Assembly (NCBI RefSeq): GCF_002931055.1
Contig: NZ_PSXX01000004.1
Location: 1 to 64,000 of the forward strand
DNA from: Pseudoclavibacter sp. AY1H1
GTDB lineage: Bacteria; Actinomycetota; Actinomycetes; Actinomycetales; Microbacteriaceae
Length of the DNA stretch: 64,000 bases
Reading direction: 5' to 3'
The position numbers and the translations under genes are program-made. Shown piece after piece: positions 23,634-50,006 of this stretch; the stretch's first letter is position 1, and every line of letters begins with the position of its first letter. Under the pieces are notes generated by a model, which was not told the origin of the DNA, did not search any database, and saw only the letters and a program-made list of their open reading frames with translations.

Positions 23634-23652
23634 GCGACCACTTCCTTGTGCG

Positions 23653-23675
23653 CTTTTGTATGTTTGATGCAAAAG
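23653..23675. promoter_or_regulatory. candidate operator between Gfo/Idh and ROK genes
   Basis: A perfect inverted repeat CTTTTG (23653-23658) and CAAAAG (23670-23675) spaced by 11 bp, in an A+T-rich patch within the divergent control region. The size and symmetry fit a ROK or LacI-type site. Confidence 0.45.
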
Positions 23676-23744
23676 TTTGCTGTGCACGAACGTATCTGGG
23701 CGTTCCCTGCGGCGCAAGGTCGACATATTGGGTACAGTTCGGCC

Positions 23745-25123: not shown

Positions 25124-25174
25124 ATGCCCAGAATCGACCCGTGCAGCCCCGACCGCCGGGGAGCACGCCCGTGA
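25124..25174 (+). CDS. 16-codon leader ORF coupled to the beta-subunit gene
   Basis: An ATG at 25124 with a strong AAAGGAG site opens a frame of only 16 codons (MPRIDPCSPDRRGARP). Its stop overlaps the GTG of the next gene (GTGA at 25171). The peptide resembles no known family. It may be a translational leader delivering ribosomes to the GTG start, or the remnant of a longer gene. Confidence 0.45.
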   Translation: MPRIDPCSPDRRGARP

Positions 25175-25572
25175 GCCTCGCGATCCTGCTCGACGACGCC
25201 CTCCGCAGCGATGGCGACGGCTTCTCGCTGCGCGTCTCCCTGCCCTGGATCCGATCCCTCCCCCTCGCCAGCCTCCACGAGCTGCGCGTCACGATCGACG
25301 GACAGAGCGCCCCGCTCCCCGAGCTGGCGCCGAGCCCCACGTGGTGGTTCGTGCAGGACCGCATCGTCGTGCACTCGAACGTGCGGCTCGAGCCCGGCCA
25401 GCACGAGGTGCTCGTGGGCTTCAAGCTCCTCATCCCCAATATGGGCGCAGGCCCGAACCAGCCGCTCATCCTGCCCTTCGCCGCCGCCCGTCGCCTGGAG
25501 CTGGACGCGCCGCTGGCCGCGCCGCGCGCATCCCGCGACCTGCCGCTCGAAGCCGTCGGGAACCCCGCGTGA
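25171..25572 (+). CDS. C-glycoside deglycosidase beta-subunit-like protein (DUF6379), set 1
   Basis: A 133-residue all-beta protein. The pattern SLRVSLPWIRSLPL, then a VTIDG strand, a WWFVQDR motif and a LLIPNM strand matches the small beta subunits of C-C bond-cleaving C-glycoside lyases (CarB/DfgB/DgpC-type). In those complexes the beta subunit caps the TIM-barrel alpha subunit. It is followed immediately by its alpha partner (GTGA overlap at 25569). The GTG start is supported by GGGGAG upstream and by coupling to the leader ORF. Confidence 0.75.
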   Translation: MSLAILLDDALRSDGDGFSLRVSLPWIRSLPLASLHELRVTIDGQSAPLPELAPSPTWWFVQDRIVVHSNVRLEPGQHEVLVGFKLLIPNMGAGPNQPLILPFAAARRLELDAPLAAPRASRDLPLEAVGNPA

Positions 25573-26585
25573 GCACGCAGCTGCCCGAGGGGTGGACGCT
25601 CGCCGCCTCGGCGTTCAACTGGTCGCCCGAGCTCATGGTCGCCGACCGCACCTCCCCCGAGATCGCGGCCTCCATCGGGGCATCCGGCGTCGCGAACGTC
25701 ATCGAGCTCGAGGCCGCCCAGACGTGGCGCACGTTCCCTGATCCGACGGATGCGGAGACCTCCAGCATCCGCTCCGCCCTCGACGCCACGGACACCTCGG
25801 TGAGCATCGTCGGCGCGAGCCTCGACGACTGGCTCACGGCCACCACACGCCGCTCGGAGGATGAGCGCTACGAGTTCCTGCTCCCCCAGCTTCGGGCAGC
25901 GGAGCGGCTCGGCGCGGAGGGCATCCGGCTTCCGCTGGGACAGGCGGGCCCTGCCCTCCTCGAGCGCCTCCTCCCCCGCCTGCACGAGCACGGCCTCACG
26001 CTCTACGAGGAGCTGCAGGGCCAGCAGTCGCTCGACAAGCCGCAGAACGCGGCTGCCGTCGAGGCCGTCGCGGCGATGGACGACACGAGCATCCGCCTGC
26101 TCCTCGACATCAGCATGCTCATGCCGTCGCTGCCGCCCAGCTACCTCGCGAGGCTGCGCGCGGGCGGGGTGGATGCGTCACTCGTGGACGCGCTCGAGCA
26201 CGACTGGCGGAGCCCGGCGACGCTCGACGCCGTCCAGGCCTCGCTCCGCGGCGGGACCGTGCCGCCGCAGGTGCACACCCTGTTCATGAACCTCGTCATC
26301 CGATTTGGGCGGTCGGACGCGCGCGAGCTGCGGGAGATCCTGCCCCTCGTCGGCGGCGTGCACCTGAAGTTCTGGGACCTCGACGACACCGGTGGCCGCA
26401 TCTCGAACCCCATCCGCGAGACCTCCGCCGAGCTTGCCGCCGTCGGCTTCACGGGCACGCTCTGCAGCGAGTGGGGCGGCCACGAGTGGATCGACTCGCT
26501 CACGCCGGAGCAGGCAACCCGCGCCCACCTGGCCCTCGCCCGCGAGGCCATCTCGGAAGGCGCCTCCGCGCCGGCGCCTGCCTGA
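25569..26585 (+). CDS. TIM-barrel C-deglycosidase alpha-subunit-like protein, set 1
   Basis: A 338-residue protein of the AP-endonuclease-2/sugar-isomerase fold. Candidate metal ligands appear in order: E in LYEELQG, D in LLLDISM, H in VHLKFWDLD and E in SEWGGHEW. Alpha subunits of this type use the metal for beta-elimination of a 3-keto C-glycoside, releasing the aglycone. It is the most divergent alpha copy here, so another sugar substrate is possible. GTG start, coupled to the beta gene. Confidence 0.75.
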   Translation: MSTQLPEGWTLAASAFNWSPELMVADRTSPEIAASIGASGVANVIELEAAQTWRTFPDPTDAETSSIRSALDATDTSVSIVGASLDDWLTATTRRSEDERYEFLLPQLRAAERLGAEGIRLPLGQAGPALLERLLPRLHEHGLTLYEELQGQQSLDKPQNAAAVEAVAAMDDTSIRLLLDISMLMPSLPPSYLARLRAGGVDASLVDALEHDWRSPATLDAVQASLRGGTVPPQVHTLFMNLVIRFGRSDARELREILPLVGGVHLKFWDLDDTGGRISNPIRETSAELAAVGFTGTLCSEWGGHEWIDSLTPEQATRAHLALAREAISEGASAPAPA

Positions 26586-26606
26586 GCTGCCCAGCCCACG
26601 CAGAGA

Positions 26607-26656
26607 AGTGCGGCAGATGCAGGCTCCCGTTCCCGGGAGCATGCATCTGCCGCACT
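26607..26656. terminator. bidirectional hairpin between convergent sugar genes
   Basis: A 15-bp perfect stem (26607-26621 with 26642-26656) capped by an inner GCTCCC/GGGAGC stem. It lies between convergent genes ending at 26585 and 26679. Confidence 0.75.
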
Positions 26657-26678
26657 CTTGTGGCCGGGCAGGGGCTGC

Positions 26679-27689
26679 CTAGTCCTGCTTCGTGGAGAAC
26701 GCCGAGTCGAACGCCGCCTCCGACGGACGATACGTCGACAGCTTGCGCACGAACCCCAACGCCTCCGGAGCACCCACGAGACGGTCCATACCCGCGTCCT
26801 CCCACTCCACCGACAGCGGACCCTCGTAGCCGATCGCGTTCAGCATGCGGAAGCAGTCCTCCCACGGCACGTCCCCGTGCCCGGTCGAGATGAAGTCCCA
26901 CCCCCGGCGCGGATCCGCCCACGGCAGATGCGACGACAACCGCCCGTTGCGGCCGTTGCTGAGGCGCTTCTTCGTGTCCTTGCAATGCACGTGATAGATG
27001 CGGTCCTGGAAGTCCCACAAGAACCCCACCGGGTCGATGTCCTGCCACACCATGTGCGACGGATCCCAGTTCAGGCCGAACGACTCCCTGTGCCCGATCG
27101 CCTCCAACGCACGCTTCGTGGTCCAGTAGTCATACGCGATCTCCGACGGGTGCACCTCGTGCGCGAACCGGACCCCGACTTCCTCGAACACATCCAAGAT
27201 CGGGTTCCACCGATCCGCGAAGTCCTGATACCCCGCATCCACCATCGCCTCCGTCGCGGGAGGGAACATCGCCACGTACTTCCAGATGCTCGAGCCCGTG
27301 AAACCCGTGACGGTCTTCACGCCCAGCGCCGCCGCGAGGCGGGCCGTGTTCTTCAGCTCCTCCGCAGCACGCTGCCGCACCCCTTCCGGCTCACCGTCGC
27401 CCCACACCCGGTCGGACACGATGTCCCGGTGCCGCTGATCGATCGGGTCGTCACACACCACCTGCCCCTTGAGATGGTTCGAGATCGTCCACACTTTGAG
27501 ACCATTGCGCTCAAGGACGTCGAGCTTGCCCTGGACGTACTCGGCGTCATCCCACCGCCACGGATCGAGGTGATCACCCCAGCAGGCGATCTCCAAGCCG
27601 TCATACCCCCACTCCCCCGCAAGACGCGCAACCTCCTCGAACGGCAGATCGGCCCACTGACCGGTGAACAACGTGACAGGACGAGACAT
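26679..27689 (-). CDS. sugar isomerase/epimerase-family TIM-barrel protein
   Basis: A 336-residue protein of the xylose-isomerase-like fold (IolE/IolI relatives). Seen: FAHEVHPSE (Glu ligand), GLNWDPSH (Asp), YHVHCKD (His) and LSVEWED (Glu), a complete metal site. It lacks the features of the deglycosidase alpha group and matches the ~335-residue isomerases that accompany Gfo/Idh dehydrogenases in actinobacterial sugar operons, so it probably handles the released keto-sugar. AGAGGAGA precedes the ATG. It is the last gene of the long minus-strand operon, after a tandem-repeat spacer. Confidence 0.83.
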
Positions 27690-27701
27690 GCTTCTCCTCT
27701 T

Positions 27702-27764
27702 AACTAACGTTCTCGAATGCTGAACTAACGTTCTCGAATGCTGAACTAACGTTCTCGAATGCTT
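27702..27764. repeat. three 21-bp tandem repeats
   Basis: Units at 27702-27722, 27723-27743 and 27744-27764 begin AACTAACGTTCTCGAATGCT and are identical apart from the last base of unit 3. They occupy most of the spacer between the Gfo/Idh gene (stop at 27777) and the isomerase gene (start at 27689). The palindromic AACGTT core recurs every two helical turns. A regulatory array or slippage product is possible. Confidence 0.85.
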
Positions 27765-27776
27765 GGGCCGCGCTGC

Positions 27777-28931
27777 TCAGACGCCGACGGCGGAGCGGGT
27801 CTCGACCCACGCGCTCTCCGCTGCCGAGCTGCGCTCGACGGCGTCGAGCACACGCTGCACGCTGAGCCCCTCTTCGAAGCTCGAGTGCAGCGGGGTGCCG
27901 TCTGCGATGGCGGTGACGAGGTCGACGACCTGGTGAGTGAAGCCGTGCTCGTAGCCGAGCATGTGACCGGCCGGCCACCAGGCTGAGACGTACGGATGCT
28001 CGGGCTCGGTCACGAGGACCTGCGCGAACCCCTGCGCCCGGCTGTCCGCCGTGCGGTCGTAGTACTGCAGCGAGTTGAGGTCCTCGAAGTTCCAGGCGAG
28101 GGCGCCGAACTCGCCGGAGACCTCGATGGCGAGCGCGTTCTTGCGGCCCGTGGCGAAGCGGCTCGCGTCGAACGAGGCGAGCGCCCCGCCCGAGAGCCGT
28201 CCGGTGAAGATCGCGATGTCGTCGACGGTCACCGCCCCAGTGCCAGAGCCGTCGGCGAGCGGACGCTCGGCGATGATCGTGTCGATCGTGCCGGAGACCC
28301 GGTCGACGCTCTGGCCCGTGACGAACTGCGTGAGGTCGATGGCGTGCGCCCCGATGTCGCCGAGCGCGCCCGAACCCGCGAGCTCCTTCTGCAGGCGCCA
28401 CGAGAGCGGTGCATCCGGGTCGACCAGCCAGTCCTGCTGGTAGGACGCACGCACCCGGTGGATGCGCCCGATCCTGCCCTCGGCGATGAGGTCGCGGAGC
28501 AGGGTCACGGCCGGCACGCGGCGGTAGGTGAAGCCGACCATCGACCTCACGCCGCGCTCTGCTGCGCGCGCAGCCGCATCCGCCATCGCCTCGCCCTCGG
28601 CGACCGTGTTGGAGAGCGGCTTCTCGACGATGACGTGCTTGCCCGCCTCGAGCGCCGCGATGGCGATCTCGGCATGCGAGTCACCGGGCGTGACGATGTC
28701 GACGATGTCGATGTCGTCTCGCCCGATGACCTCACGCCAGTCGGTGGCCGACTCCTGCCAGCCCCACTGCTTCGCGGCATCCGCGACCGCGTTGCCGTTG
28801 CGCCCGACCACAACCGCCATCTCGACCTCGGCTGGCAGGCCGAAGACGCGAGGCGCCTGCCGCCAGCCGACCGAGTGAGCGGCTCCCATGAAGCCGTAGC
28901 CGATCATGGCCACGCGCAACGGCCGGGTCAT
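27777..28931 (-). CDS. Gfo/Idh/MocA-family oxidoreductase (copy 2)
   Basis: A 384-residue NAD(P)-dependent dehydrogenase. The Rossmann motif VAMIGYGFMGAAHS is at the N-terminus and VIVEKPLSNTVAEGE near residue 100; the substrate domain contains GDIGAHAIDL with the conserved catalytic-region His. It probably reduces or oxidises the keto-sugar produced by glycoside cleavage. The ATG overlaps the upstream beta-subunit stop (ATGA at 28928). Confidence 0.87.
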   Translation of the reverse strand: MTRPLRVAMIGYGFMGAAHSVGWRQAPRVFGLPAEVEMAVVVGRNGNAVADAAKQWGWQESATDWREVIGRDDIDIVDIVTPGDSHAEIAIAALEAGKHVIVEKPLSNTVAEGEAMADAAARAAERGVRSMVGFTYRRVPAVTLLRDLIAEGRIGRIHRVRASYQQDWLVDPDAPLSWRLQKELAGSGALGDIGAHAIDLTQFVTGQSVDRVSGTIDTIIAERPLADGSGTGAVTVDDIAIFTGRLSGGALASFDASRFATGRKNALAIEVSGEFGALAWNFEDLNSLQYYDRTADSRAQGFAQVLVTEPEHPYVSAWWPAGHMLGYEHGFTHQVVDLVTAIADGTPLHSSFEEGLSVQRVLDAVERSSAAESAWVETRSAVGV

Positions 28932-29326
28932 GCGAGAACCACTTCGCGCTCGACGGGGACGCGGTTGGTGACATAGCGGCCCGGCGCGATCTGCATGTAG
29001 AGGAGTCGCATCGTGAGCACGACCTCGACCGTGAGCTTGTCGCCGGCGGCCGGCACCTCATCTAGCTGGATGACGATGTCGGGCCGGTCGGAGAGGAACC
29101 AGAGGGTCTCCGACTGCTCGGGCAGCTCGTCGATCGTGTATGAGCGCCCGACGAGATCGAAGCGCAGCTTGTCCTTCGGGACGGACACCCCGTTGACGTT
29201 GACTTCGACGTTGTCGACGGCCGACAGCCAGAGGCTGCGGTACCAGGGGATCTGCACGGAGACGCTGATGCCGTCCTCGCGCCGGGTGACGTCCTTCTCG
29301 GCGAAGAGCGAATTGTGTGTTGCCAT
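28928..29326 (-). CDS. C-glycoside deglycosidase beta subunit-like (DUF6379), set 2
   Basis: A 132-residue beta-sandwich protein. The core SVQIPWYRSLWLSAVDNVEV, then VNGVSVP, SYTIDELPEQ, LWFLSDRPD and LLYMQIAPG, is the canonical beta-subunit pattern. It lies 17 bp behind its presumed partner alpha gene at 29344. Its closest relative in the window is the N-terminal domain of the fusion at 36824 (shared MAT(H/Q) start, PWYRS(L/V)WLS, EQSE(T/V)LWFL and YMQI). Cytoplasmic. Confidence 0.82.
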   Translation of the reverse strand: MATHNSLFAEKDVTRREDGISVSVQIPWYRSLWLSAVDNVEVNVNGVSVPKDKLRFDLVGRSYTIDELPEQSETLWFLSDRPDIVIQLDEVPAAGDKLTVEVVLTMRLLYMQIAPGRYVTNRVPVEREVVLA

Positions 29327-29343
29327 GTGTCTGTTCCCTAGCC

Positions 29344-30387
29344 TCAGGCGACCGTGAGGCTGTTCGCCTCGGCCGCGGTCTCTTCGATGGCACGGCGCAT
29401 GAGCGCGTGCTGCTGGCGCACCTGCTCGACCGGGTCGCTCTCGCCGAGGTCGGCGAACGCGTGGCCCTCCCACTCGCTGGAGAGGTAGCCCTGGTAGCCG
29501 CCCTTGACGAACTGGCGCACGATGCGCGCCGTGTCCATGGCCGGCTCCTCGCCGTGCTCGTCGATGTCGTAGAACTTCGCGTGCACGTGGAACATCTGCG
29601 GCATGATGTCGAGCCATTCCTCCGGCTCGACGAGGCCGTGCATGTTGAAGGCCAGGCGCGTGAACGGGCCGAGGCGGGCGAAGTCGAACTTCTCCTCCGT
29701 GAGGAAGTCCTCGAAGGCCTGGTTGCGCACGTGCATCGGCTGCGGGCGGCGCCAGATCTCGTCCATGACGGGGAAGTACTCCTCCGGCATGCCCATGCTG
29801 CTCAGGGTGCGCAGCAGCCGCGGCGAGAGGCTGTGCATCGTCGAGCTGAAGTCGGCGGTGAAGCCGAGGCGGTCGCTGCCGAGGTCCTCGTACATCTCGC
29901 GGATCGCGTGGATCTGCGGGGCGTTCGGGCCGGAGGGGGCGTGGATCTCGTAACCGAGACGCTGGTCGTACTTCTCTGCGAGCGGCAGGAGCCGCGCGAG
30001 CAGCTCCTTGCCTGCTGAGCGGATGACGACGGTGCGGAACCCGAAGTCGTTGGCCGTCGCGAGCTGGCGCGCGAAGAACTCGTACTCCTCGTCCGGCGTC
30101 ATGTCGCGGTCCTTGCGGCGCCCCATGTCGAGGTTGGTGCCGACGGCGCTGGGCTCGAGGCCGTCGCGCTCGAGGGTGTCGCGCCAGAACTTCACGAACT
30201 CCTTGTCGGTGTCCGGGTAGGTGCGCAGCAGCTGCGCGATGTTGAACTCGACGCCAGTGCCGAGGCCCTCCTTGTGCACCGCCTCGACAAGCGTCTCCGG
30301 CGTGTAGAGGCCGGCCGCGAACTCCGAGGTCAGCGAGTAGAGGGTGATGCCGAGCTTGATGCCCGTTCCTGCGATTCCATCTGTCAT
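29344..30387 (-). CDS. C-glycoside deglycosidase alpha subunit-like TIM-barrel lyase, set 2
   Basis: A 347-residue TIM-barrel protein. Metal ligands are visible in order: GYEIHAP (Glu), FTADFSS (Asp), FHVHAKFYDID (His) and SSEWEGHAF (Glu). With the adjacent DUF6379 gene this matches the CarC/DfgA-type alpha subunits that cleave the sugar-aglycone C-C bond of 3-keto-C-glycosides. The ATG at 30387 follows AGAAGGAGA; upstream codons are spurious. The 25-bp gap to another alpha gene makes an alpha-alpha junction in the operon. Confidence 0.82.
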   Translation of the reverse strand: MTDGIAGTGIKLGITLYSLTSEFAAGLYTPETLVEAVHKEGLGTGVEFNIAQLLRTYPDTDKEFVKFWRDTLERDGLEPSAVGTNLDMGRRKDRDMTPDEEYEFFARQLATANDFGFRTVVIRSAGKELLARLLPLAEKYDQRLGYEIHAPSGPNAPQIHAIREMYEDLGSDRLGFTADFSSTMHSLSPRLLRTLSSMGMPEEYFPVMDEIWRRPQPMHVRNQAFEDFLTEEKFDFARLGPFTRLAFNMHGLVEPEEWLDIMPQMFHVHAKFYDIDEHGEEPAMDTARIVRQFVKGGYQGYLSSEWEGHAFADLGESDPVEQVRQQHALMRRAIEETAAEANSLTVA

Positions 30388-30412
30388 GGTGTTCTCCTTC
30401 TGGTCCCGGCGG

Positions 30413-31516
30413 TCAGCTGCGTACGGGCAGCGCATGGTGGGCGGCGAGGATGCGGCGCGCCTCGGCGGGGTCGGTGATCATGCGCGATCCCGCATCCGCT
30501 GCAGCGGAGCGCTGCACGGCGTGTTCGGCGCGGATGATGTCGAACGGGCTCTGCCAGTGGTTCCAGTGCCAGCCCTCGTACTCGCTCGAGACGGCGCCCG
30601 AGTAGCCCTGCTCGACAAGCAGCGCGATGAGCTCGCGCACGGGAACCGAGGGCTCCTCGCCGTGCTCGTCGATGCCGAAGAACTTGCCGTGCACGTGCTT
30701 GACCCACGGCATGATCTCGAGCCAGTCCTCGACGCGGGCCGGGCCGAAGAGGCCGGTGCCGTTGATGGCGAAGTCGATGCCGAAGTCTGGACGGCCGTGC
30801 TTGGCGGCGAGGCCGATGAACGAGCCGAAGCGCTTGCCGTGCACGCCCTGGTCGGCCGGCGGGCCCTCGGCGTAGTAGCCGTCCCACAGCTCGACGAGCT
30901 CGGTGAGCAGCTCCTCCGAGGCGCCGCGGCGGCGGTAGGCCTCGACGGCGGACGGGGCGAACGCCTTGGTGGTGGCGCCCCAATCGGCGGTGAAGCCGAG
31001 GTACGGGGAGCCGACCTGCTCGAAGCGGTCGCGGAGCGCGAGGATGCGGGGGTGCGAGGCGTACTGGTCGGCGTGCACCTCGAGGGCCAGCGTCACGCCG
31101 TGCTTCTCGGCGATCGGCGCGAGCTGCTCCATCGAGTCCGGCGTGATGGAGATCTGCACGCGGGCGACGGGGAAGCCGAGCTTGGCGGCCGCCTCGATCT
31201 GCCGCGTCATGTACTCGACGAGCTCGTCCTGCGAAAGCAGGCGGTCGCGGTGGATGCCGATGTCGGCGTTGACCGCGAGCGAGGTGCGGACCAGGTCGAG
31301 CTCCTCGACGAGGTCGGAGAACCAGCCGGCGAACTCGTCGGTGATGTTCGGGAAGCCTCGGATGCTCGAGAACCCGATGAGCTCGAGGCCGGGTCCGAAG
31401 CCCTCGGCCGCGACCTTGCGGATGAGCCCTTCGAGGTCGTACTCGCGCCCGTGGAACGCGCGGGTGAAGCTGTAGAGGGTGACCCCCTGGATGGGGGTGC
31501 CGAGCTCGCTGCTCAT
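30413..31516 (-). CDS. C-glycoside deglycosidase alpha subunit-like TIM-barrel lyase, set 3
   Basis: A 367-residue paralogue of the gene at 29344. The metal set is ALEVHAD (Glu), FTADWG (Asp), KHVHGKFFGID (His) and SSEYEGWHW (Glu). An extra ~25-residue C-terminal tail (ITDPAEARRILAAHHAL) is not shared with the other alpha proteins. The ATG overlaps the stop of its beta partner (ATGA at 31513), giving a beta-then-alpha order opposite to set 2. Confidence 0.82.
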   Translation of the reverse strand: MSSELGTPIQGVTLYSFTRAFHGREYDLEGLIRKVAAEGFGPGLELIGFSSIRGFPNITDEFAGWFSDLVEELDLVRTSLAVNADIGIHRDRLLSQDELVEYMTRQIEAAAKLGFPVARVQISITPDSMEQLAPIAEKHGVTLALEVHADQYASHPRILALRDRFEQVGSPYLGFTADWGATTKAFAPSAVEAYRRRGASEELLTELVELWDGYYAEGPPADQGVHGKRFGSFIGLAAKHGRPDFGIDFAINGTGLFGPARVEDWLEIMPWVKHVHGKFFGIDEHGEEPSVPVRELIALLVEQGYSGAVSSEYEGWHWNHWQSPFDIIRAEHAVQRSAAADAGSRMITDPAEARRILAAHHALPVRS

Positions 31517-31908
31517 GCGGAGACCGCCTTCATCGTCTTGGAGTTGTGTTCTTCGATGCGGAGCACCCCGTGGTCGGTGATGATGTACGGGATGTAGAGC
31601 TTCAGGTCGACGTCGACGGTGTGGTCTCCGTCGCCCGCTGTGATGGGGATGTCGCCTTCGACCACGACGGAGTCGGTCGGGAACCACCACTCGCTCGTGT
31701 CGCTGGCGAGCTCATCCGGTGCGTAGGTCCTGCCGTTCATGGTCCAGCGCAGCGACTCGAGTGGGGCGGCGATGCCGTCGACCGAGAGGCCGAACTCGGA
31801 GATGCATGATGCGGGGAGCGAGCGGTACCAGGGCAGGCGCACCTCCACCGAGGTGCGTGTGCCGTTCGTCTTGAGCGTGTCCTGCTCGATGATCCGATCA
31901 GGAATCAT
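31513..31908 (-). CDS. C-glycoside deglycosidase beta subunit-like (DUF6379), set 3
   Basis: A 131-residue beta protein: VEVRLPWYRSLPASCISEF, LSVDGIA, TYAPDEL, WWFPTDS and LYIPYI follow the family pattern. It is translationally coupled to its alpha partner downstream. It lies 30 bp after the second GMC oxidase gene, so oxidase, beta and alpha form one unit. Confidence 0.82.
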   Translation of the reverse strand: MIPDRIIEQDTLKTNGTRTSVEVRLPWYRSLPASCISEFGLSVDGIAAPLESLRWTMNGRTYAPDELASDTSEWWFPTDSVVVEGDIPITAGDGDHTVDVDLKLYIPYIITDHGVLRIEEHNSKTMKAVSA

Positions 31909-31938
31909 GGTGGCCTCCTAGCCAGTTGTCAGTCATGG

Positions 31939-33525
31939 TCAGTGCTCGGTCGTCTGCGACGCGAGCGCTGGTGCGGTGGTGAGCCTCGCCGCGACGTCGC
32001 GGGCGCCCTTCACGGCGAGCGCGACGCTCGTGAGGGTGGGGTTGCAGGCGGTCGAGGTCGGGATGACGCCGTTGCCGGCGACGTAGAGCCCCGGCACGCC
32101 CCAGACCTCGCTCGTCGGCGAGCAGACGCTCTCGCCGTCGTCGGTCTCGCCCATGCGGGTTGTGCCCTGGTAGTGCAGGGATGCGCCGAAGGGGAGGCGG
32201 ATGACGCGCTCGTCGAGGGGTTCGCCGACGGCGTCGCCGAGCACGCGCAGCTCGGCCTCCGCCGCATCCATCACCGCTCGGTCCTTGTCGGTGGCGGTGT
32301 AGTGGATGCGCACGGCGGGCATCCCGTAGCTGTCGAGGTGCCCTTCGGTGAAGAGCACGCGGTCGTCGCGCTGCAGCTCCTTCGCGCAGAACATGCCGAG
32401 CCCCACGATGGAGCCGGGGATGACGGCGTCGTCGACCGCGACCGGCACGGGGGACGCGTCGAGCTGCATGACCTGCCCGTGGAACGGCTTCGCGTCGGTG
32501 TACGGCACCCAGCTGACGCCACTCGTCTCGCTGATGGCGCCAGCGGCCTTGTCCTGCACCGTGTCCGCAGATACCTCCGGCGCTTCGATGCCCGTGATCC
32601 GGGCGGCGAAGACGACCTGCGACTGGTCGTTGAGGTAGCGGCCGAGCGCATCGGGTCGGATCCCGGAGGCCCACAGGACCTGCGGGGTGCGGAGCGCGTC
32701 GGCGGCCACGACGACCACTCCGGCCGCGACCACGCTGAGCTGCGCTGCGCCGGCCTCGCTGAGGTCGCGCACCTCGACTCCCGCGACCGCGCCGTCGTCG
32801 CCGAGCACGGTCCGGGTGACGAGGGACTCATCGAAGAGCTCGAAGTTGGGGTTCTCGCGTGTCACGCCGCCGAGGACGACGTCGGAGCCCGACCAGACGA
32901 GGCGCCCGTCGTCACGGCGCCGCACGGCGAGCGGCATCCGCTGCACGCGGGCGGCAGGCTCGCGGCCCCCGTCGACCACCGGCGAGAGCCGGTCGCGGAT
33001 GAGCTGGCTGAAGGGGGCACCCTCGAACGCGTCGGTCGTGACGCCGAGCAGGCGCTCGGCCTCACCGAGGAGTTCGTCGAGCTCGCCCGTCGCGTCGAGG
33101 AAGCTGATGCGCTCGCTCTCGCCCGGGCGCGGGCAGGCGCCCGTCCAGTGGGCGGACATGCCGCCCACGTTGCTCGACATGGCCGCGACGGGCATCCCGT
33201 CACCGCCGTCGACCGAGAAGTCGTCGTCGGGAAGGATGTACGTGCCCGGGCGCGACTGCCGCTTCCCCTGCGCGAGGGCGACGGGACTGTTGAGCTTGGA
33301 GGCCGCTTCGCCCGGCCCCTCGGAGCGCCGCTGGGCGGAGCTCCGAGCTTCGAGGTCCTCGATGTTCTTGACGTGCGCGCCCGGCGGGTTCGAGACGGTC
33401 GGCCCGACCTCGAACATCGCGATGCGCAGCTCGGGTGCCGTCTCGCTCAGGATGCGCGCGTAGCTCGCGCCGGCTGGTCCGCTGCCGACGATGGCGACGT
33501 CGACGCGCTCCGGGTAGCGGCTCAT
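31939..33525 (-). CDS. GMC-family FAD oxidoreductase, C-glycoside 3-oxidase-like (second copy)
   Basis: A 528-residue flavoprotein paralogous to the gene at 18466: VDVAIVGSGPAGASYA at the N-terminus, GGMSAHWTGACP in the cap region, and the C-terminal catalytic ASLHYQGTTRMG with NPTLTSVALAV. It is embedded between the alpha/beta lyase genes, the arrangement known for CarA with CarBC, so oxidation of the sugar C3 before C-C cleavage is the likely role. The ATG overlaps the upstream isomerase-like gene (ATGA at 33522). Confidence 0.85.
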   Translation of the reverse strand: MSRYPERVDVAIVGSGPAGASYARILSETAPELRIAMFEVGPTVSNPPGAHVKNIEDLEARSSAQRRSEGPGEAASKLNSPVALAQGKRQSRPGTYILPDDDFSVDGGDGMPVAAMSSNVGGMSAHWTGACPRPGESERISFLDATGELDELLGEAERLLGVTTDAFEGAPFSQLIRDRLSPVVDGGREPAARVQRMPLAVRRRDDGRLVWSGSDVVLGGVTRENPNFELFDESLVTRTVLGDDGAVAGVEVRDLSEAGAAQLSVVAAGVVVVAADALRTPQVLWASGIRPDALGRYLNDQSQVVFAARITGIEAPEVSADTVQDKAAGAISETSGVSWVPYTDAKPFHGQVMQLDASPVPVAVDDAVIPGSIVGLGMFCAKELQRDDRVLFTEGHLDSYGMPAVRIHYTATDKDRAVMDAAEAELRVLGDAVGEPLDERVIRLPFGASLHYQGTTRMGETDDGESVCSPTSEVWGVPGLYVAGNGVIPTSTACNPTLTSVALAVKGARDVAARLTTAPALASQTTEH

Positions 33526-34316
33526 GCCGACGCCGCGGCTTCCTTCACGAAGGCCACCGATGCAGCCGACTCCGTGGTCGGGTAGTACTCGAGGCCGATG
33601 GGGCCGTCGTAGCCGGATGCGCGCAGCACGGAGAACTTCTCGGCCCAGTCGAGCGAGCCGCTGCCGGGCTCGCCGCGGCCCGGCGCATCCGCCAACTGCA
33701 CGTACTTGACGATGTCTCCGGCGTTGGCGAGCTCGGCCGCCATGTCCTCGCCCTCGACGGCAGAGTGGTAGATGTCGTAGAGCACGCCGAAGTTCGGGGA
33801 GTCGACGCCGCGGGCGACGTAGACGGCCTCCGAGGTGCGGTCGAGGAGCGAGCCGGGGTGGTCGACGCGGACGTTGACCGGCTCGAGCACCAGCGTGATG
33901 CCGGAGCCCTCGATCTGGGCGATCGCCTTCTCGTAGATGGCGATGAGCTCGTCGAGCTGCGTCTGACGCTTCGAGCCGCCGAAGCCCGTGCCGCTGCCGA
34001 CGACGATGCGCGGGCAGCCGAGGTCCTGCGCGATGGCGACGCCCTCGTCCAGGCACTGGTAGAAGAAGGAGTGGTCCTTCGGCGGGATCATGAACTGCGT
34101 GCGCGGCTCGGCGAGCTGCGCCGTGAGCTGCGTGCCCGTCTCCTCCAGAGCCGCCTTGAGCGCGGGGAGGTCCTTGGGCTTGGCGGGTGCATCCTTGCCC
34201 GTCGGCCCCCACATCTCGACGGCGTCGAAGCCGGCTGCCGAGGCAGCGCGGACTCGGTCGTGGTAGTCGCCGGCTTCGGTGAAGAGGAGTTCGATGTTCG
34301 GTGCGAGCTGGTACAT
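33522..34316 (-). CDS. hydroxypyruvate-isomerase-family (Hyi-like) TIM-barrel protein
   Basis: A 264-residue protein of the Hyi/xylose-isomerase-like group. Seen: the N-terminal APNIELLFTE, the metal Glu in LVLEPVN, Asp in LYDIYHS, a VQLADAPGRGEPG loop and Glu in IGLEYYP, the layout of hydroxypyruvate isomerases and erythrulose or keto-sugar isomerases. It probably isomerises a small keto-sugar from the glycone. It is coupled to the GMC gene downstream and lies 72 bp behind the fusion at 34389. Confidence 0.82.
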   Translation of the reverse strand: MYQLAPNIELLFTEAGDYHDRVRAASAAGFDAVEMWGPTGKDAPAKPKDLPALKAALEETGTQLTAQLAEPRTQFMIPPKDHSFFYQCLDEGVAIAQDLGCPRIVVGSGTGFGGSKRQTQLDELIAIYEKAIAQIEGSGITLVLEPVNVRVDHPGSLLDRTSEAVYVARGVDSPNFGVLYDIYHSAVEGEDMAAELANAGDIVKYVQLADAPGRGEPGSGSLDWAEKFSVLRASGYDGPIGLEYYPTTESAASVAFVKEAAASA

Positions 34317-34388
34317 GGCTGGTCCTTTGCGGGGTTCGAAGAGTGAGGGGTCGACGCGTGGAGGTCGAAGCCCGAGGCGGGCGATGCG

Positions 34389-35690
34389 CTAGAGGCGGTC
34401 TGCGAGCTGACGGATGAGGGAGTGCTGGCGGCGGACCTGCTCGATGGAGCGCCACGGTTCGCGCTCGCCCTCGTATTCGCTCGAGAGGTAGCCCGTGTAC
34501 CCGGCGTCCTTGAGGGCCTTGAGCACCGGCTCCCAGGGGATCTGCTGGTCCTCGAGGCGCTCGTCGATGTCGTGGAACTTGGCCTGGATGAACACGACGT
34601 GCTCGATGATTCCGGCGATGTCGGCCGGGTCGACGCCGATGCCGTCGAGGAAGTCGGGGCGCTTGCCCGGCAGCTCGCCCGGACGCAGCGGTATCGGCCT
34701 GTCCTGGAAGATGCCGGTGTCGAGGAGCAGCCCGAAGTGCTTCGTGCCGGTGCGCGTGATGAGCGCGATGTAGTCATCCACGACCTCGTGCTTGATGGGC
34801 GTCGGCGAGTGGATCTCCGGGCAGATGATGACGTCGAGTTCCTCGGCGAGGGGAAGGCTCAGCTCGACGGCTTCCGTCCAGCTGTGGTGCGGCACGAGGT
34901 CGCTCGTGACGACCCCGATCTTCGGGCGCACGAACCTGAAGCCGAGCCGCTTGGCGAGGCGCAGGTCGCGCTGCAGGATCTCGGCGCCCTCCGCCGCGGT
35001 GAGGTCGCGCGCCTGCGCTCCGCTCGAGAAGAGCCGCGTGTCGATCCAGGAGCCGTAGTTCGTCGGCTCGAGCGAGTACTTGTCGAGCAGCGCGAACCAC
35101 TCGTCGACCCAGTCGTCGCTCGGGTTGGGGTAGTTGGGGATGTGCCCCTCGCCGAGGATCTCGACGCCGGTGGCGCCGAGGTCGGCGATCGAGCGCAGCG
35201 CGGTCTCGAGGTCCATGACGGTGCCGTAGTCGCCCATGTAGCTGTAAAGGGAGACGCCGTATGCGAACTGGGCGCCTTCTGCCTCGGGCGTGAGGGTGAC
35301 GTGCTTCGTCACCTGGTAGCGGCTCGGCTGGTGCTCGAGCGGGATGTACGACATCCGCAGGCGCAGGTCGACCGAGAGCTCGTGCACGCCGTCCGGCAGG
35401 CCACCCTCGAGGGGGACGGTGACGGTGGCGGGTTCGTCGAGCTGCCAGCGCACATCCTTCGACACCCACAGCTCCTCGAGCGTGTACGTGTTCCCCTGGA
35501 GCGTCCAGAGCGGGACGGTCGGGTCCACGTCGACGACGCCGGGGATCTCAACGCCGACCCCGTCGATGAGCGAGGCCGCCATGCCGCGGTACGACGGCAT
35601 GCGGAGCTGGAATTGGAACCCGGTGACCGTGTCGCCCTCGCGCACGTTGCGGAAGCCGACGGACTGGATGAGGTCTCTCTCGAGAAGCAT
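34389..35690 (-). CDS. natural beta-alpha fusion of a C-deglycosidase-like enzyme (fusion A)
   Basis: A 433-residue single chain. Residues 1-135 are a DUF6379 beta domain (FQLRMPSYRGMAASLIDGV, TYTLEEL, MSYIPLEHQ); 140-433 are a TIM-barrel alpha domain starting at FAYGVSLYSYMGDYG. Metal-site residues: Glu in ICPEIHSP, Asp in LLLDTGIF and Glu in SSEYEGE. The usual VHAKF histidine is replaced by Gln (FIQAKFHDID), which may alter metal binding or specificity. It heads the 35690-26679 operon, with a CTTATG/CATAAG inverted repeat just upstream. Confidence 0.8.
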   Translation of the reverse strand: MLLERDLIQSVGFRNVREGDTVTGFQFQLRMPSYRGMAASLIDGVGVEIPGVVDVDPTVPLWTLQGNTYTLEELWVSKDVRWQLDEPATVTVPLEGGLPDGVHELSVDLRLRMSYIPLEHQPSRYQVTKHVTLTPEAEGAQFAYGVSLYSYMGDYGTVMDLETALRSIADLGATGVEILGEGHIPNYPNPSDDWVDEWFALLDKYSLEPTNYGSWIDTRLFSSGAQARDLTAAEGAEILQRDLRLAKRLGFRFVRPKIGVVTSDLVPHHSWTEAVELSLPLAEELDVIICPEIHSPTPIKHEVVDDYIALITRTGTKHFGLLLDTGIFQDRPIPLRPGELPGKRPDFLDGIGVDPADIAGIIEHVVFIQAKFHDIDERLEDQQIPWEPVLKALKDAGYTGYLSSEYEGEREPWRSIEQVRRQHSLIRQLADRL

Positions 35691-35719
35691 CGTTGCTCAC
35701 TCTCTGTGTCTGTGCGTCC

Positions 35720-35752
35720 ACTCTACGCACTTATGTCGGTTTCAGTCATAAG
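35720..35752 (-). promoter_or_regulatory. promoter region with CTTATG-N11-CATAAG inverted repeat
   Basis: An inverted repeat CTTATG (35730-35735) and CATAAG (35747-35752) surrounds the likely promoter of the fusion-A operon. On the minus strand GACATAAG is followed by TAGAGT (35720-35725), a fair -10 box. No good -35 is visible, which fits an activator- or repressor-controlled promoter. GACATAAG is shared with other catabolic promoters in the window. Confidence 0.5.
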
Positions 35753-35889
35753 AAAGACTGATGCGCGCCTTAGGTGCTGCGGATGCGGGCGGGCCGGCCG
35801 CAAGAGCGGCGCCCGAGCATCCGGAATCCGCCGCCGCACGGCCGCCGCCCGGCCGCCCTCGCCTCAGTCGGTCCGCACACCTGGGGCTT

Positions 35890-36665
35890 GTGCACCTGCG
35901 GCTTGTGCACCTGCGGGCGCCCTTTCGCCTGCGCAACCCCCAGGCCTGCGCAGCACCCCGCCCACGCGCTCACAGACCTGTGCCTTCCGCACCTGCGGGC
36001 ACCCCTCCGCCTCCACAACCCCCAGGTCTACGCAGAACCCCGTCCACGCGCCCACAGACCTGGGCCATGCGCACCTTCGGGAGCCCCACAGCCTGCGCAA
36101 CCCCCAGGTCTGCGCAGAACCCCATCCACGCGCCCACAGACCTGGGCCCTGCGCACCTTCGGGAGCCCCACAGCCTGCACAACGCCCAGGTCTACGCAGA
36201 TCCCTGCCCGCGCGCCCACGCGCCCAGCAGACCTGGGCCACGCGCACCTCCGGGAGCGCCACAGCCTGCACAACACCCAGGTCTACGCAGATCCCTGCCC
36301 GCGCGCCCACGCGCCCAGCAGACCTGGGCCACGCGCACCTCCGGGAGCGCCCCACAGCCTGCACAACCCCCAGGTCTGCGCAGCACCCCGCCCACGCGCC
36401 CACAGACCTGGGCCACGCGCACCTCCGGGAGCGCCCCACAGCCTGCACAACCCTCAGGTCTCCGCAGAACCCCGCCCACGCGCGCGCCTCCCCGCGCCCA
36501 CACGCCCACAGACCTTGGCCTTGCGCACTTACCGGAGCCCCACAGCCTGCGCAACCCCCAGGTCTCCGCAGATCCCTGCCCGCGCGCACACGCGCCCGGC
36601 AGACCTGGGCCTTGCGCACCTCCGGGAGCCCCACAGCCTGCACAACCCCCAGGTCTGCGCGACGC
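35890..36665. repeat. nine-copy intergenic array, basic period 82 bp
   Basis: The unit core CCCAGGTCT recurs with AGGTCT-type anchors at 35942, 36024, 36106, 36188, 36279, 36372, 36456, 36560 and 36651 (intervals 82, 82, 82, 91, 93, 84, 104, 91). Most units also carry AGACCTGGG further on, so each can fold into a stem of about 9 bp extended by TGCGCA/TGCGCA. The 1133 bp between the two fusion genes hold no convincing gene. Long open frames here are artefacts of G+C-rich repeats. Confidence 0.85.
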
Positions 36666-36739
36666 CCGAGACCACACATACCTGCACCTCCACCCACTCC
36701 CGGCATCTCCGCCCGCGCCTCCGCCCACTCCCTCCAAGC

Positions 36740-36799
36740 GCAGATGTGGGGGTTGCGCATGTGAATCACCGGATTCACGTACGCAACCCCCACATCTGC
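36740..36799 (-). terminator. 18-bp perfect palindrome at the end of the ABC-fusion operon
   Basis: GCAGATGTGGGGGTTGCG (36740-36757) pairs perfectly with 36782-36799; an inner GTGAATC/GATTCAC stem (36761-36767 with 36772-36778) tops it. It lies 25 bp past the stop at 36824. Its arm CGCAACCCCCA.ATCTGC resembles the unit of the adjacent nine-copy array, which may have arisen from it. Confidence 0.8.
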
Positions 36800-36823
36800 T
36801 CAGCTCAGAGTGCGGCTGGCGGC

Positions 36824-38326
36824 TCAGGCCAGCGCCTGCACCTCCCGCATGCTGCGGCGGATGAGCGCGTGCTGGCGCTGCACGAGCACAAGCGGGTCGA
36901 CCTCGCCGAGGTCAGCGAAGGCGTGGCCCTCCCACTCGCTCGACATGTAGCCGGAGAAGCCGCCGCGCACGAACTCCTCGGTGATCGCGCGGTAGTCAAT
37001 CGCCGGCTCGTCGCCGTGCTCGTCGATGTCGTAGAACTTGGCGTGCACGTGCAGGATCTGCGGCATGATGTCCGACCACTCGCGCACATCCACGCGGCCC
37101 TGCATGTTGAAGGACAGGTGCGCGAGCGAGCCGAGGATGCCCGGGTTGATGCCACGCCCCTCGAGGTACGCGATGAACGCCTGCTGGCGCTCGCGCATGG
37201 GCACATCGGTGCGCCAGATCTCCTGGAGCTTCTCCACCGCGGCGTCGTCGAGGCCGCGCTTCTTCACCGAGCGCAGCAGCGTCGGCGCCATGCTGTGCAT
37301 CGTCGACGAGAAGTCGGCGACGAAGCCGAGCAGCGGGGAGTCGAACTCCTCGAAGACCTCGCGCACCTTCACGATGGGCTCGGCGTTCGGCCCGAGGGGC
37401 GCGTGGATCTCGTAGCCGAGCTTGAGGTTCAAGCGCTCCGCGATGGGCAGGATGCGCCGCAGCAGCTCCGGCTTCGCGCTCTGGATGCGCACGAGCGGGA
37501 AGTCGAGCTTCTTCGCCGACTGCAGCAGCGTCTCGGTGAACTCGAACTCCTCGTCGAGGCTCATGTCGCGCGACCGGTTGCGGCCCATGTCGAGGTTCGC
37601 GCCGAACGAGCTGGCGTCGAAGCCGTACTTGTCGAACGCGCTGCGCCACTTCGCGACGAACTCGTCGGAGACGTGCGGGTACGTGGGCACCATCTGGGAG
37701 GCGACGATCTCGATGCCGGGCCCGATGCCGAGCTCGGCGACGCGCGCCAGAAGGGAGTCGAAGTCGTACCAGCCCGCCGCGAACTCGGCCGTTGCCGAGT
37801 AGAGGGTGAGGCCGAGCTTGAAGGGGTCGCTGTCGCGGGGCTCGGCGAACTCGCCGAGTGCATCCGCCGCCGACGCCTCGAAGTACGGGGTGGTCGCAGC
37901 CTCGACGGCCTCGCTCGCGACGAGCGTGCGGGTCACGTCGACGTGGTTCGGGACGTAGAGGCCCGGCTCGGTCTCGCTGCCCGGCTTGATCTGCATGTAC
38001 GGCAGTCGCAGGTCGGCGACGAGGCGGACCTCGTGCTCGCTGCCATCCGCGATCGGCTCGTCGAGTTCGACGACGAGGCGCGGGCGGTCCTGCAGGAACC
38101 ACAGCACCTCCGACTGCTCGGCGATCTCGTCGAGGCGGTAGCTCTCGCCACGGTGCTCGAGGCGCAGCTTCGAGGCGTCGATCGCGGCGCCGTCGATCTC
38201 AAGGGCGAGGCCCGTGACCGAGGAGAGCCAAACGCTGCGGTACCAGGGCAGCTGCAGGCTGAGCGCTGCGCCATCCGGGTGGGGGAAGAGGCTCTGCTCG
38301 CTGAGCAGGGTGTCTTGCGTTGCCAT
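36824..38326 (-). CDS. natural beta-alpha fusion of a C-deglycosidase-like enzyme (fusion B)
   Basis: A 500-residue chain: beta domain at 1-130 (LQLPWYRSVWLSSVTGLAL, LWFLQDRPR, LPYMQIKPG), an Ala/Glu-rich linker at about 132-165, and an alpha domain at 166-500. The alpha domain has the full metal set GYEIHAP, FVADFSS, LHVHAKFYDID and SSEWEGHAF. It is clearly paralogous over its whole length to the separate genes at 28928 and 29344. It follows the ABC permeases by 15 bp, linking uptake and cleavage. The linker suggests an established two-domain enzyme rather than a frameshift accident. Confidence 0.82.
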   Translation of the reverse strand: MATQDTLLSEQSLFPHPDGAALSLQLPWYRSVWLSSVTGLALEIDGAAIDASKLRLEHRGESYRLDEIAEQSEVLWFLQDRPRLVVELDEPIADGSEHEVRLVADLRLPYMQIKPGSETEPGLYVPNHVDVTRTLVASEAVEAATTPYFEASAADALGEFAEPRDSDPFKLGLTLYSATAEFAAGWYDFDSLLARVAELGIGPGIEIVASQMVPTYPHVSDEFVAKWRSAFDKYGFDASSFGANLDMGRNRSRDMSLDEEFEFTETLLQSAKKLDFPLVRIQSAKPELLRRILPIAERLNLKLGYEIHAPLGPNAEPIVKVREVFEEFDSPLLGFVADFSSTMHSMAPTLLRSVKKRGLDDAAVEKLQEIWRTDVPMRERQQAFIAYLEGRGINPGILGSLAHLSFNMQGRVDVREWSDIMPQILHVHAKFYDIDEHGDEPAIDYRAITEEFVRGGFSGYMSSEWEGHAFADLGEVDPLVLVQRQHALIRRSMREVQALA

Positions 38327-38341
38327 GTGGGGTCTCGATTC

Positions 38342-39178
38342 CTAGTGCTTGAGTCCGCCTGCGAAGCCCTGCATGAACTGCTTCTGGGCGACGAGGTAGA
38401 AGATGAGGATCGGCACCATCGAGATGATGACGATGGAGAAGATCTGGTTCCACTGCGAGACGAGCGCGCCGACGTAGTAGTACATCGCCACGGGCAACGT
38501 CTGGAAGTCGGAGCCGCCGAGGAAGATGAGCGACGTGAAGAAGTCGTTCCACACGATGAGGCCGGCGAGGATCGCGACCGTTCCGGTGGCCGGCGCCATG
38601 AGGGGGAGGATGATCTGGAAGAACACCTGCGTGGGGCTCGCCCCGTCGAGGGCCGCAGCCTCCTCGTAGTCGGTGCCGAGTCCGCGGAAGAAGTTGGCGT
38701 ACAGGAAGATCGCGAGCGGGAGGAGCATCCCCGTGTAGAGCACGATCATGCCCCACAGCGAACCGGTCAGGCCGAGCGCGCGGGCCCCCATGTACAGGGG
38801 AACGGTGCCGAGCTGCGTTGGCAGGATGATCGCGATGAGGAAGATGTAGTACGACACCTGGGTCCAGCGGCGGGTGCTGCGCGTGATGACGTAGCCCGCG
38901 AGCGCCCCGAGGATCACCATGCAGAGGATCGTGCCGCCCGTGATGATGATGCTGTTGAGCAGGCCGATGAGCACGTTCGACTGCCCCGTCGCCGTCATGA
39001 CGTTGGCGAAGTTCTCGACCGTCCACGTTGCGGGGAGCTCGGTGGCAGAGGTTGAGAAGACCTCCTGGTCGCTCTTGAACGCAGTGATGACGAGGAAGTA
39101 GAACGGCAGCAGGAACACGATGGCGACGAGCCAGACCGCGACTTCCCTGATCAGCGTGAGCTTGGTGTACCTGAACAT
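38342..39178 (-). CDS. ABC sugar transporter permease (MalG/inner-membrane component 2)
   Basis: A 278-residue integral membrane protein with six predicted helices and the ATPase-contact EAA loop seen as EEAAALDGASPTQVFFQIILP. It belongs to the carbohydrate-uptake CUT1 group. It starts 2 bp after the companion permease stop. No ATPase gene is in the window; CUT1 systems of actinobacteria commonly borrow a shared MsiK-type ATPase. Confidence 0.9.
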   Translation of the reverse strand: MFRYTKLTLIREVAVWLVAIVFLLPFYFLVITAFKSDQEVFSTSATELPATWTVENFANVMTATGQSNVLIGLLNSIIITGGTILCMVILGALAGYVITRSTRRWTQVSYYIFLIAIILPTQLGTVPLYMGARALGLTGSLWGMIVLYTGMLLPLAIFLYANFFRGLGTDYEEAAALDGASPTQVFFQIILPLMAPATGTVAILAGLIVWNDFFTSLIFLGGSDFQTLPVAMYYYVGALVSQWNQIFSIVIISMVPILIFYLVAQKQFMQGFAGGLKH

Positions 39179-41498: not shown

Positions 41499-41690
41499 TT
41501 TTTGCCTTTCTTGACAGCGTTGTCGAAGATCCTCCGGCCGTACCGGAGCTGGGTTCAGTCTGGCAGGCTTGTGCGCAAAACACACATAAGTAGTTGCGAT
41601 GCTCCGCATAACTCACGGCCCGGAACCCGCCGAGCGCATCACCGAGACGGATATGCTGGCGCCACACCCCCGATCCGGAGGCACAACGAC
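41499..41690. promoter_or_regulatory. divergent control region between the ABC operon and LysR
   Basis: It contains a CTCCGG-N5-CCGGAG inverted repeat (41532-41548) in the leader of the binding-protein gene and a CACATAAG element (41583-41590) related to the GACATAAG motif. A TATGCT box (41652-41657) could be the -10 of the LysR gene. Precise sites cannot be assigned. Confidence 0.35.
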
Positions 41691-43252: not shown

Positions 43253-43308
43253 GCGGATCGGCGGGTCGGCGGATCGGCGGATCGGCGGATCGGCGGGTCA
43301 GCGGGTCA
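43253..43308. repeat. 8-bp microsatellite of seven units running into the thiolase stop
   Basis: GCGGATCG/GCGGGTCG/GCGGGTCA units in perfect 8-bp register from 43253 to 43308. The thiolase stop codon (43298-43300) lies inside the sixth unit, so the repeat spans the 3' end of the gene. Confidence 0.85.
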
Positions 43309-47818: not shown

Positions 47819-47906
47819 GATGGTCCTGCTTTCTGCGTCTGCGTTGACGATGAAGGTGTCTGGGTCAGCGGCGGCGGGGCTGCCTCTGGGGTGGACGAGT
47901 GGGTGC

Positions 47907-49969: not shown

Positions 49970-50006
49970 GGTTGGTCTCCAATTCACGACGCTTCGGTGC
50001 GTTCGT

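Follow-up and report, generated by a model that had tools for sequence, protein, structure and literature searches.

What does a bacterium do with five C-glycoside deglycosidase-like alpha/beta pairs encoded side by side, and do all five break carbon–carbon bonds? The question is raised by the first 64,000 nucleotides of contig NZ_PSXX01000004.1 (hereafter the window) of Pseudoclavibacter sp. AY1H1, whose genome comprises 4.2 Mb in 25 contigs. Within the window, positions 25171-38326 hold five beta modules, each with a TIM-barrel alpha module beside it or in the same fused protein; these pairs are referred to as sets 1 to 5. We propose, with a probability of roughly two in three, that the island is an aromatic C-glycoside catabolic system in which sets 2-5 are C–C lyases and set 1 is a keto-sugar isomerase or epimerase that does not cleave C–C bonds. 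Systems of this kind are known; the arrangement here is wider than in the available published descriptions, and its new element is the strictly conserved, noncanonical set 1.

Five alpha/beta sets with the C-glycoside deglycosidase fold

The five sets are as follows; scores are given against the Pfam profiles CGDB (C-glycoside deglycosidase beta, PF19906; gathering cut-off 27.6 bits) and AP_endonuc_2, or against the solved alpha chain 7dnm_A of the C-glycoside deglycosidase (CGD) AgCGD2.

beta1 of set 1 (noncanonical), 25171-25572, + strand, CGDB 21.2 bits, under the cut-off
alpha1 of set 1, 25569-26585, + strand, 7dnm_A 96.5 bits
beta2 of set 2, 28928-29326, - strand, CGDB 54.3 bits
alpha2 of set 2, AgCGD2 orthologue, 29344-30387, - strand, 7dnm_A 617 bits
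alpha3 of set 3, probably of the CarBC/MiCGD type, 30413-31516, - strand, 7dnm_A 185.6 bits
beta3 of set 3, 31513-31908, - strand, CGDB 55.7 bits
set 4, beta-alpha fusion, orthologous to the CGD of Microbacterium testaceum, 34389-35690, - strand, CGDB 116.8 and AP_endonuc_2 65.9 bits
set 5, beta-alpha fusion, AgCGD2-like, 36824-38326, - strand, CGDB 53.2 and AP_endonuc_2 33.8 bits

A preliminary description had placed five such sets at these coordinates, and the profile searches, solved relatives and structure models agree with it. It had also assigned every beta module to DUF6379, which we take to be the family now named CGDB; PDB chains named 'DUF6379 domain-containing protein' were among the sequence matches. 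For sets 2-5 that assignment stands, all four modules scoring above the cut-off, whereas beta1 falls below it (E 2.7e-4) and has a predicted fold that matches CGD betas only. Orthologues of beta1 lie on both sides of the threshold, those in genomes G143, G321 and G028 above it (33.0, 33.2 and 28.7 bits) and those in G036, G308, G373, G007 and G103 below it (21.5-27.2 bits). Alpha1 likewise scores under the AP_endonuc_2 cut-off (25.8 vs 31.1 bits).

Solved CGD alpha chains are among the sequence matches of all five alphas, so that the CGD-type character proposed for the sets is borne out, and the fold of set 1 was examined with AlphaFold2 models. The fifteen best matches of the beta1 model (mean predicted local distance difference test score, pLDDT, 86.6) were CGD beta chains, and the fused M. 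testaceum CGD came sixteenth; the first unrelated fold followed at rank 17 with an E-value of 0.21. For the alpha1 model (pLDDT 91.7), the best match was the AgCGD2 alpha chain 7dnm_A, with a template-modelling score of 0.84, and ranks 1-16 were all CGDs. All five sets thus share the CGD fold, in set 1 by prediction.

Chance similarity or a frame artefact is excluded for beta1 and alpha1: both models fold as CGD parts, and a beta1 match was found near alpha1 in 80/80 loci from named genomes (the best 80 of 88 set-1 loci, with flanks of up to 8 kb). Chance is also excluded for the island as a whole, because CGDB clusters recur in Microbacteriaceae and the fetched loci largely keep the gene order. 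Outside the window, the AY1H1 genome gave no CGDB match at E 0.001.

Sets 2-5 keep the residues of known lyases

Alpha residues are numbered here as in AgCGD2 unless stated otherwise. In the published mechanism His149 is the base, Glu307 holds a water molecule, and E147, D179, H269, K271 and E305 bind the metal (PMC8563793). His149 was kept in 81/81 canonical alpha rows (sets 2-5) and Glu307 in 79/81; of the remaining two rows, one is frame-broken and the other truncated. The five predicted metal ligands were all kept in set 2 (21/21) and set 3 (21/21), as they were in set 5 (E147 and D179 in 19/19 rows; H269, K271 and E305 in the 18/18 that were readable). In set 4, H269 is replaced by Gln in 19/19 readable rows and the other four ligands are kept; the same Gln is present in the solved set 4 orthologue 8qrz, which is a CGD by its PDB title. 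The beta modules of sets 2-5 in the window carry Tyr39 within a PWYRS or PSYRG motif, the position being mapped via the alignment of beta3 with 7bvr_B. Across loci, the motif was PWYRS in 59/62 beta2 sequences (the remaining three had PWRRA, PGYRV or no motif) and PWYR in 37/37 beta3 sequences.

Each of these sets can be related to a known enzyme. Set 2 is orthologous to AgCGD2 (AgCarB2-C2 of Arthrobacter globiformis NBRC12137; PDB 7dnm/7dnn), keeping every catalytic residue and forming a clade with it that has 100/100 support. In set 3 the catalytic His and Glu are 166 residues apart, as compared with 158 in AgCGD2; the MiCGD residues H147 and E313 are likewise 166 apart (PMC8563793). Because of this equal spacing, and by elimination rather than by comparison with the published sequences, set 3 probably belongs with CarBC and AgCGD1; like CarBC/MiCGD, AgCGD1 and MtCGD, it is encoded by two genes. 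Set 4 is orthologous to the M. testaceum C-glucosyl deglycosidase (PDB 8qrz/8un2), known from its PDB title and chain; it is fused in the same way and matches 8qrz with 822 bits over its full length (residues 1-433). Set 5 matches 7dnm_A with 402 bits and 7dnm_B with 101 bits. The set 5 fusion was seen in 18/18 genes counted (one ending at a locus edge), and set 4 was fused in 12/19 genes and split in 7/19. Pairwise identity among the alphas of the window is 25-35%, the exception being sets 2 and 5, at 50%. As read from these alignments, sets 2-5 are predicted C-glycoside deglycosidase-type lyases that match known enzymes and keep the known lyase residues, with Gln in place of one metal ligand in set 4.

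A tree that includes five solved enzymes resolves five distinct alpha lineages. Recent tandem duplication of the five sets was considered and ruled out, as each alpha type groups with its Arthrobacter, Pseudarthrobacter and Microbacterium orthologues and not with its neighbours in the island. The five types are old, distinct lineages, which fits a division of labour.

Set 1 is conserved and lacks the elimination residues

Set 1 residues were counted in 79 alpha sequences, comprising this window and 78 of the 80 named loci. In 79/79, His149 is replaced by Gln and Glu307 by Gly, and E147, D179, H269, K271 and E305 are kept. In beta1 the Tyr39 position is Ile in 79/79 loci covering it (one locus does not), within PWIRS in 75, SWIRS in two and PWIRA in two. 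The polar residues E46, D86, Q107, R120 and R245 of set 1 are also invariant (79/79); Arg245 (set 1 numbering) aligns with the aglycone-pocket Met249 of AgCGD2, a position occupied by Arg in only 2/47 non-set-1 rows of the tree. That tree, of 58 alpha rows, joins the set 1 sequences in one separate group of 11 with 100/99 support; all 11 have Gln and Gly, the other 47 have His and Glu, and the five solved enzymes fall outside the group. Distant set 1 relatives with 29-33% identity (L037, L051, L134 and L136) likewise carry Gln and Gly.

Published mutants indicate what these exchanges may cost. Alanine at the His149 equivalent leaves 10.4% of the activity of PuCGD and 1.8% of that of MiCGD, and alanine at the Glu307 equivalent leaves 49.8% and 1.9%, respectively (PMC8563793). 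The beta Tyr39 is conserved in known enzymes, and the Y39F mutation of PuCGE causes a ~12,000-fold loss on 3-keto-C-glucosides but only a 2.4-fold loss on the O-glycoside 3-keto-phlorizin (PMC10628242). Because His149, Glu307 and the beta Tyr39 are all replaced, set 1 should not cut C-glycosides by the published mechanism.

Decay into a pseudogene was considered as well, and is ruled out for the set 1 family by the invariance of its residues; single copies are frame-broken (G226, G364, L115 and L132). In 16/80 loci (L070, L073, L083 and others) the beta1 match is on the strand opposite alpha1.

Proposed pathway and the place of set 1

Related operons break down glycosides along a route of four steps, namely oxidation, elimination, hydration and reduction (PMC10628242), and the island has candidates for each of them. 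An ABC importer would take up the glycoside and GMC flavo-oxidases would oxidise its sugar at C3, whereupon the metal-dependent alpha/beta lyases of sets 2-5, each fitting a different aglycone attachment, would cleave the C–C bond by beta-elimination. The 2-hydroxy-3-keto-glucal set free in this way would be hydrated to 3-keto-glucose by an IolE-like hydratase, and the 3-keto-glucose reduced to glucose by a Gfo/Idh enzyme (Gfo2); neighbouring genes would break down the aglycone.

The most likely role of set 1 is to isomerise or epimerise keto-sugar intermediates, and not to act as a C–C lyase. It would be a CGD-fold heterodimer in which the elimination machinery has been exchanged (His to Gln, Glu to Gly, and beta Tyr to Ile) and the metal site retained. 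One attractive task for such an enzyme would be to return 2-keto-C-glycosides to the 3-keto form. D-tagatose 3-epimerase and the 3-keto-glucoside 4-epimerase YcjR are among the lower fold matches of alpha1, and in xylose-isomerase-like enzymes of this type metal-bound Glu residues carry out proton transfer. As to the 2-keto forms, 3-keto-nothofagin passes spontaneously to its 2-keto form, which PuCGE does not use (PMC10628242, PMC13273386). A tentative extension of this proposal, rather unlikely as it stands, makes set 1 a new kind of enzyme altogether: a metal-dependent isomerase or epimerase of keto-glycosides, composed of two subunits and derived from the frame of a C-glycoside lyase. It would turn dead-end 2-keto-C-glycosides back into 3-keto forms cleavable by sets 2-5; its two metal-bound Glu residues would shuttle the proton, and the substrate would be held by the invariant Arg where the aglycone pocket used to be.

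Several points weigh against the proposal. The reactions of the island are predicted from sequence, and the hydratase assignment of the candidate IolE-like protein is one of homology, a protein of other annotation (2zds, described below) being far closer. 2-Keto- and 3-keto-puerarin interconvert fast without an enzyme (PMC10628242), and therefore a set 1 isomerase would matter for some substrates only. Set 1 could use another base, or could be a non-catalytic binding protein. The mutant data are uneven at Glu307, whose alanine equivalent in PuCGD retains about half its activity (PMC8563793), and set 4 lacks a metal His yet has an orthologue titled CGD; single-residue rules in this family therefore have exceptions. 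Lastly, the alpha tree is rooted at its midpoint, and the program warns of long branches, that of set 1 included. It is accordingly uncertain whether set 1 is basal; the reading of its residues is independent of the tree.

The most direct alternative, and the one nearest to the preliminary description, is that all five sets are C–C lyases for different aglycones, with set 1 relying on another base. It would account for the CGD fold modelled for both subunits of set 1, for the five metal ligands, and for the finding that set 1 occurs only with canonical sets (21/21 genomes in a sample of 398). Yet His149, Glu307 and the beta Tyr39 are replaced in every readable set 1 sequence, and each such mutation elsewhere removes most or nearly all C–C cleavage, except that of the Glu in PuCGD (49.8% left), so that we regard a fifth lyase as improbable. 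Of the earlier idea that five sets divide a range of C-glycosides among them, the distinct old lineages remain, but by the known mechanism at most four sets could take part. Under a more permissive variant, set 1 would eliminate glycosides whose leaving groups are better, such as 3-keto-O-glycosides; its metal site is intact, and the small effect of Y39F in PuCGE on 3-keto-phlorizin (2.4-fold; PMC10628242) offers a precedent. This variant is doubtful in that the general base His is gone too, and the O-eliminase AtOGE is itself described with a His base, H134 (PMC10628242), and in that oxidised O-glycosides are reported to lose their sugar without an enzyme (PMC12724307), which makes one less needed.

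Set 1 might also have no catalytic role and only bind a ligand, perhaps as a sensor that cooperates with the nearby ROK regulator. The loss of its elimination residues would be explained, as would a ROK match in 77/80 set-1 loci; but the five metal ligands together with E46, D86, Q107, R120 and R245 are invariant in 79/79 sequences, seemingly beyond what binding needs, and in G143 set 1 lies ~14 kb from the ROK gene. On balance this, too, seems unlikely. Hardly any credence can be given to the view that all the sets are sugar epimerases and none a lyase: the alpha fold is indeed a xylose-isomerase-like TIM barrel, and the alpha1 model has D-tagatose 3-epimerase and YcjR among its lower matches, but the nearest solved relatives of sets 2-5 are CGDs, and these sets have beta modules and keep their lyase residues. 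An isomerase or epimerase role for set 1 beside four lyases therefore remains our preferred reading. Set 1, strictly conserved without the lyase residues, poses a puzzle: the accepted catalytic residues may be dispensable, or else C-glycoside breakdown includes a step that has been overlooked.

Oxidases and other genes of the island

The genes from 18466 to 41609 begin on the - strand with GMC1, an MFS transporter and Gfo1, followed on the + strand by a ROK gene, beta1 and alpha1. Then come, on the - strand, the IolE-like TIM barrel, Gfo2, beta2, alpha2, alpha3, beta3, GMC2, a hydroxypyruvate-isomerase-like TIM barrel, sets 4 and 5 as beta-alpha fusions, a pair of ABC permeases and, last, a solute-binding protein. 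The genes other than those of the five sets, with those lying beyond them, are:

GMC1, flavoenzyme of the C-glycoside-oxidase/pyranose-oxidase kind, 18466-20043, - strand, GMC_oxred_C 49.6 bits
MFS transporter, 20096-21634, - strand, MFS_1 182.9 bits; adjoins GMC1 in related loci
Gfo1, Gfo/Idh/MocA oxidoreductase, 22596-23726, - strand, GFO_IDH_MocA 81.7 bits; match in 69/80 set-1 loci
ROK-family regulator, start codon uncertain, 23646-25022, + strand, ROK 166.7 bits; match in 77/80 set-1 loci
AP_endonuc_2/IolE-like protein, candidate 2-hydroxy-3-keto-glucal hydratase, 26679-27689, - strand, AP_endonuc_2 145.8 bits
Gfo2, Gfo/Idh/MocA oxidoreductase, candidate 3-keto-glucose reductase, 27777-28931, - strand, GFO_IDH_MocA 89.3 bits
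GMC2, C-glycoside 3-oxidase-type flavoenzyme, 31939-33525, - strand, 7qf8 753 bits
hydroxypyruvate-isomerase-like AP_endonuc_2 protein, 33522-34316, - strand, AP_endonuc_2 137.3 bits; TIGR03234 160.3 bits, under its curated cut-off of 353.45
ABC permease, 38342-39178, - strand, BPD_transp_1 52.6 bits
ABC permease, 39180-40154, - strand, BPD_transp_1 75.3 bits
extracellular solute-binding protein, 40206-41609, - strand, SBP_bac_1 106.5 bits
thiolase, FAA hydrolase, amidohydrolase_2, FAD monooxygenase, cyclase and FAA hydrolase, 43298-50011, - strand, by Pfam

The closest solved relatives of GMC2 are PsG3Ox (7qf8) and MtCarA (7dve, 709 bits); GMC1 is more distant, at 364 bits to 8qve and 342 bits to MtCarA. 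By homology, both are related to C-glycoside oxidases. The two GMC oxidases of the preliminary description are thus real, although only GMC2 lies inside the 13-kb range that it gave.

The IolE-like protein matches 8ro4, a 2-hydroxy-3-keto-glucal hydratase, with 133 bits, and 2zds, a 'putative DNA-binding protein', with 548.5 bits. It is 88-93% identical to its counterparts in Arthrobacter, Pseudarthrobacter, Subtercola and Salinibacterium, and mostly 75-80% identical to those of Microbacterium; the gene is either unusually well conserved or has been exchanged between genera.

The aromatic-type catabolic genes at 43298-50011 may serve in aglycone degradation. Within the flanks of the set-1 loci, a match to the cyclase was present in 50/80 and one to the second FAA hydrolase (FAH2) in 46/80.

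Distribution and comparison with published systems

The nearest named relative found was Pseudoclavibacter terrae THG-MD12; in BLAST matches to its locus L054, the proteins of the island show 81-99% identity. Across 398 sampled Microbacteriaceae genomes, CGDB matches were found in 26: 21 had 3-6 matches, four had one, and one had 11, some of them repeated at contig ends. Multiple matches in a genome were mostly close together. Set 1 alpha, counted at >200 bits as whole genes or broken pieces, was present in 21/398, and all 21 also had canonical CGDB modules; the five CGDB genomes without set 1 were G045, G055, G073, G171 and G188. Set-1 loci from named genomes came from Microbacterium, Agromyces, Arthrobacter, Leifsonia, Subtercola and others. 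Besides beta1 and ROK, these 80 loci gave matches to Gfo2 in 66, to the IolE-like protein in 63 and to beta2 in 63. For 11 named genomes whose flanks held few or no other sets, a search of the whole genome gave at least four CGDB matches over the cut-off in 11/11. Outside the family, CGDB matches over the cut-off were found in 3/396 genomes of the same phylum, AY1H1 included, and at E 0.001 in 5/396.

All five sets are present in Arthrobacter globiformis NBRC 12137, Pseudarthrobacter siccitolerans 4J27 and Microbacterium trichothecenolyticum DSM 8608. MtCGD comes from strain NBRC15077, which presumably corresponds to DSM 8608. The A. globiformis island contains a fragment of the AgCGD2 sequence; the available part of PMC8563793 names only AgCGD1 and AgCGD2 from this strain, yet its genome has the five-set island. 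In P. siccitolerans the PsG3Ox locus is the same island; two CGD sets beside PsG3Ox are described in the available text of PMC10646112, as against the five found here, which include set 1 and both fusions. The Agrobacterium tumefaciens AtOGE/AtHYD operon and the Bacillus smithii levoglucosan operon share the common plan of oxidation, elimination, hydration and reduction; AtOGE has no sequence similarity to CGDs, and multiplied sets are not mentioned for those operons in the accessible portion of that paper (PMC10628242).

As far as the available texts go, C–C lyases of this family have been described singly or with no more than two sets at a locus. A literature search, mainly of titles and the beginnings of abstracts and with sparse coverage of subscription journals, returned no account of five sets, of set 1 or of a CGD without the catalytic His; the term DUF6379 occurred in no paper of the same literature. 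The suggestion that a locus with this many sets had not been described agrees with that search, but a locus unique to this genome is ruled out, since the island recurs in Microbacteriaceae, Arthrobacter and Pseudarthrobacter. In both Microbacteriaceae and Micrococcaceae, five old, distinct alpha/beta lineages travel together in one catabolic island, also in strains from which enzymes have been published, and the island provides a ready enzyme panel for comparing aglycone selectivity.

Alpha1 had matches in six records of a plasmid collection, five of them at 22-25% identity and one close (57%), from Arthrobacter sp. StoSoilB13 (L146). Most of the island is carried there on a 1.0-Mb plasmid, which suggests horizontal movement. 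The island is also found on contigs that bear the names Stenotrophomonas maltophilia P13 and Planococcus sp. APC 4015 (L079 and L082), with Microbacterium-like identities; contamination or mislabelling is possible. Among the genomes of the phylum with CGDB matches, G576 (locus L138) has four CGDB modules within 4 kb and three alpha parts with differing best matches, beside transporter genes.

A gap of 1.1 kb separates the two fusion genes of the window and contains a tandem repeat array at 35878-36660, with a period of ~82-104 bases and up to 6.8 copies. Long open frames run through this interval on both strands, with no Pfam match, and in the P. terrae genome (G274) the gap is ~0.5 kb.

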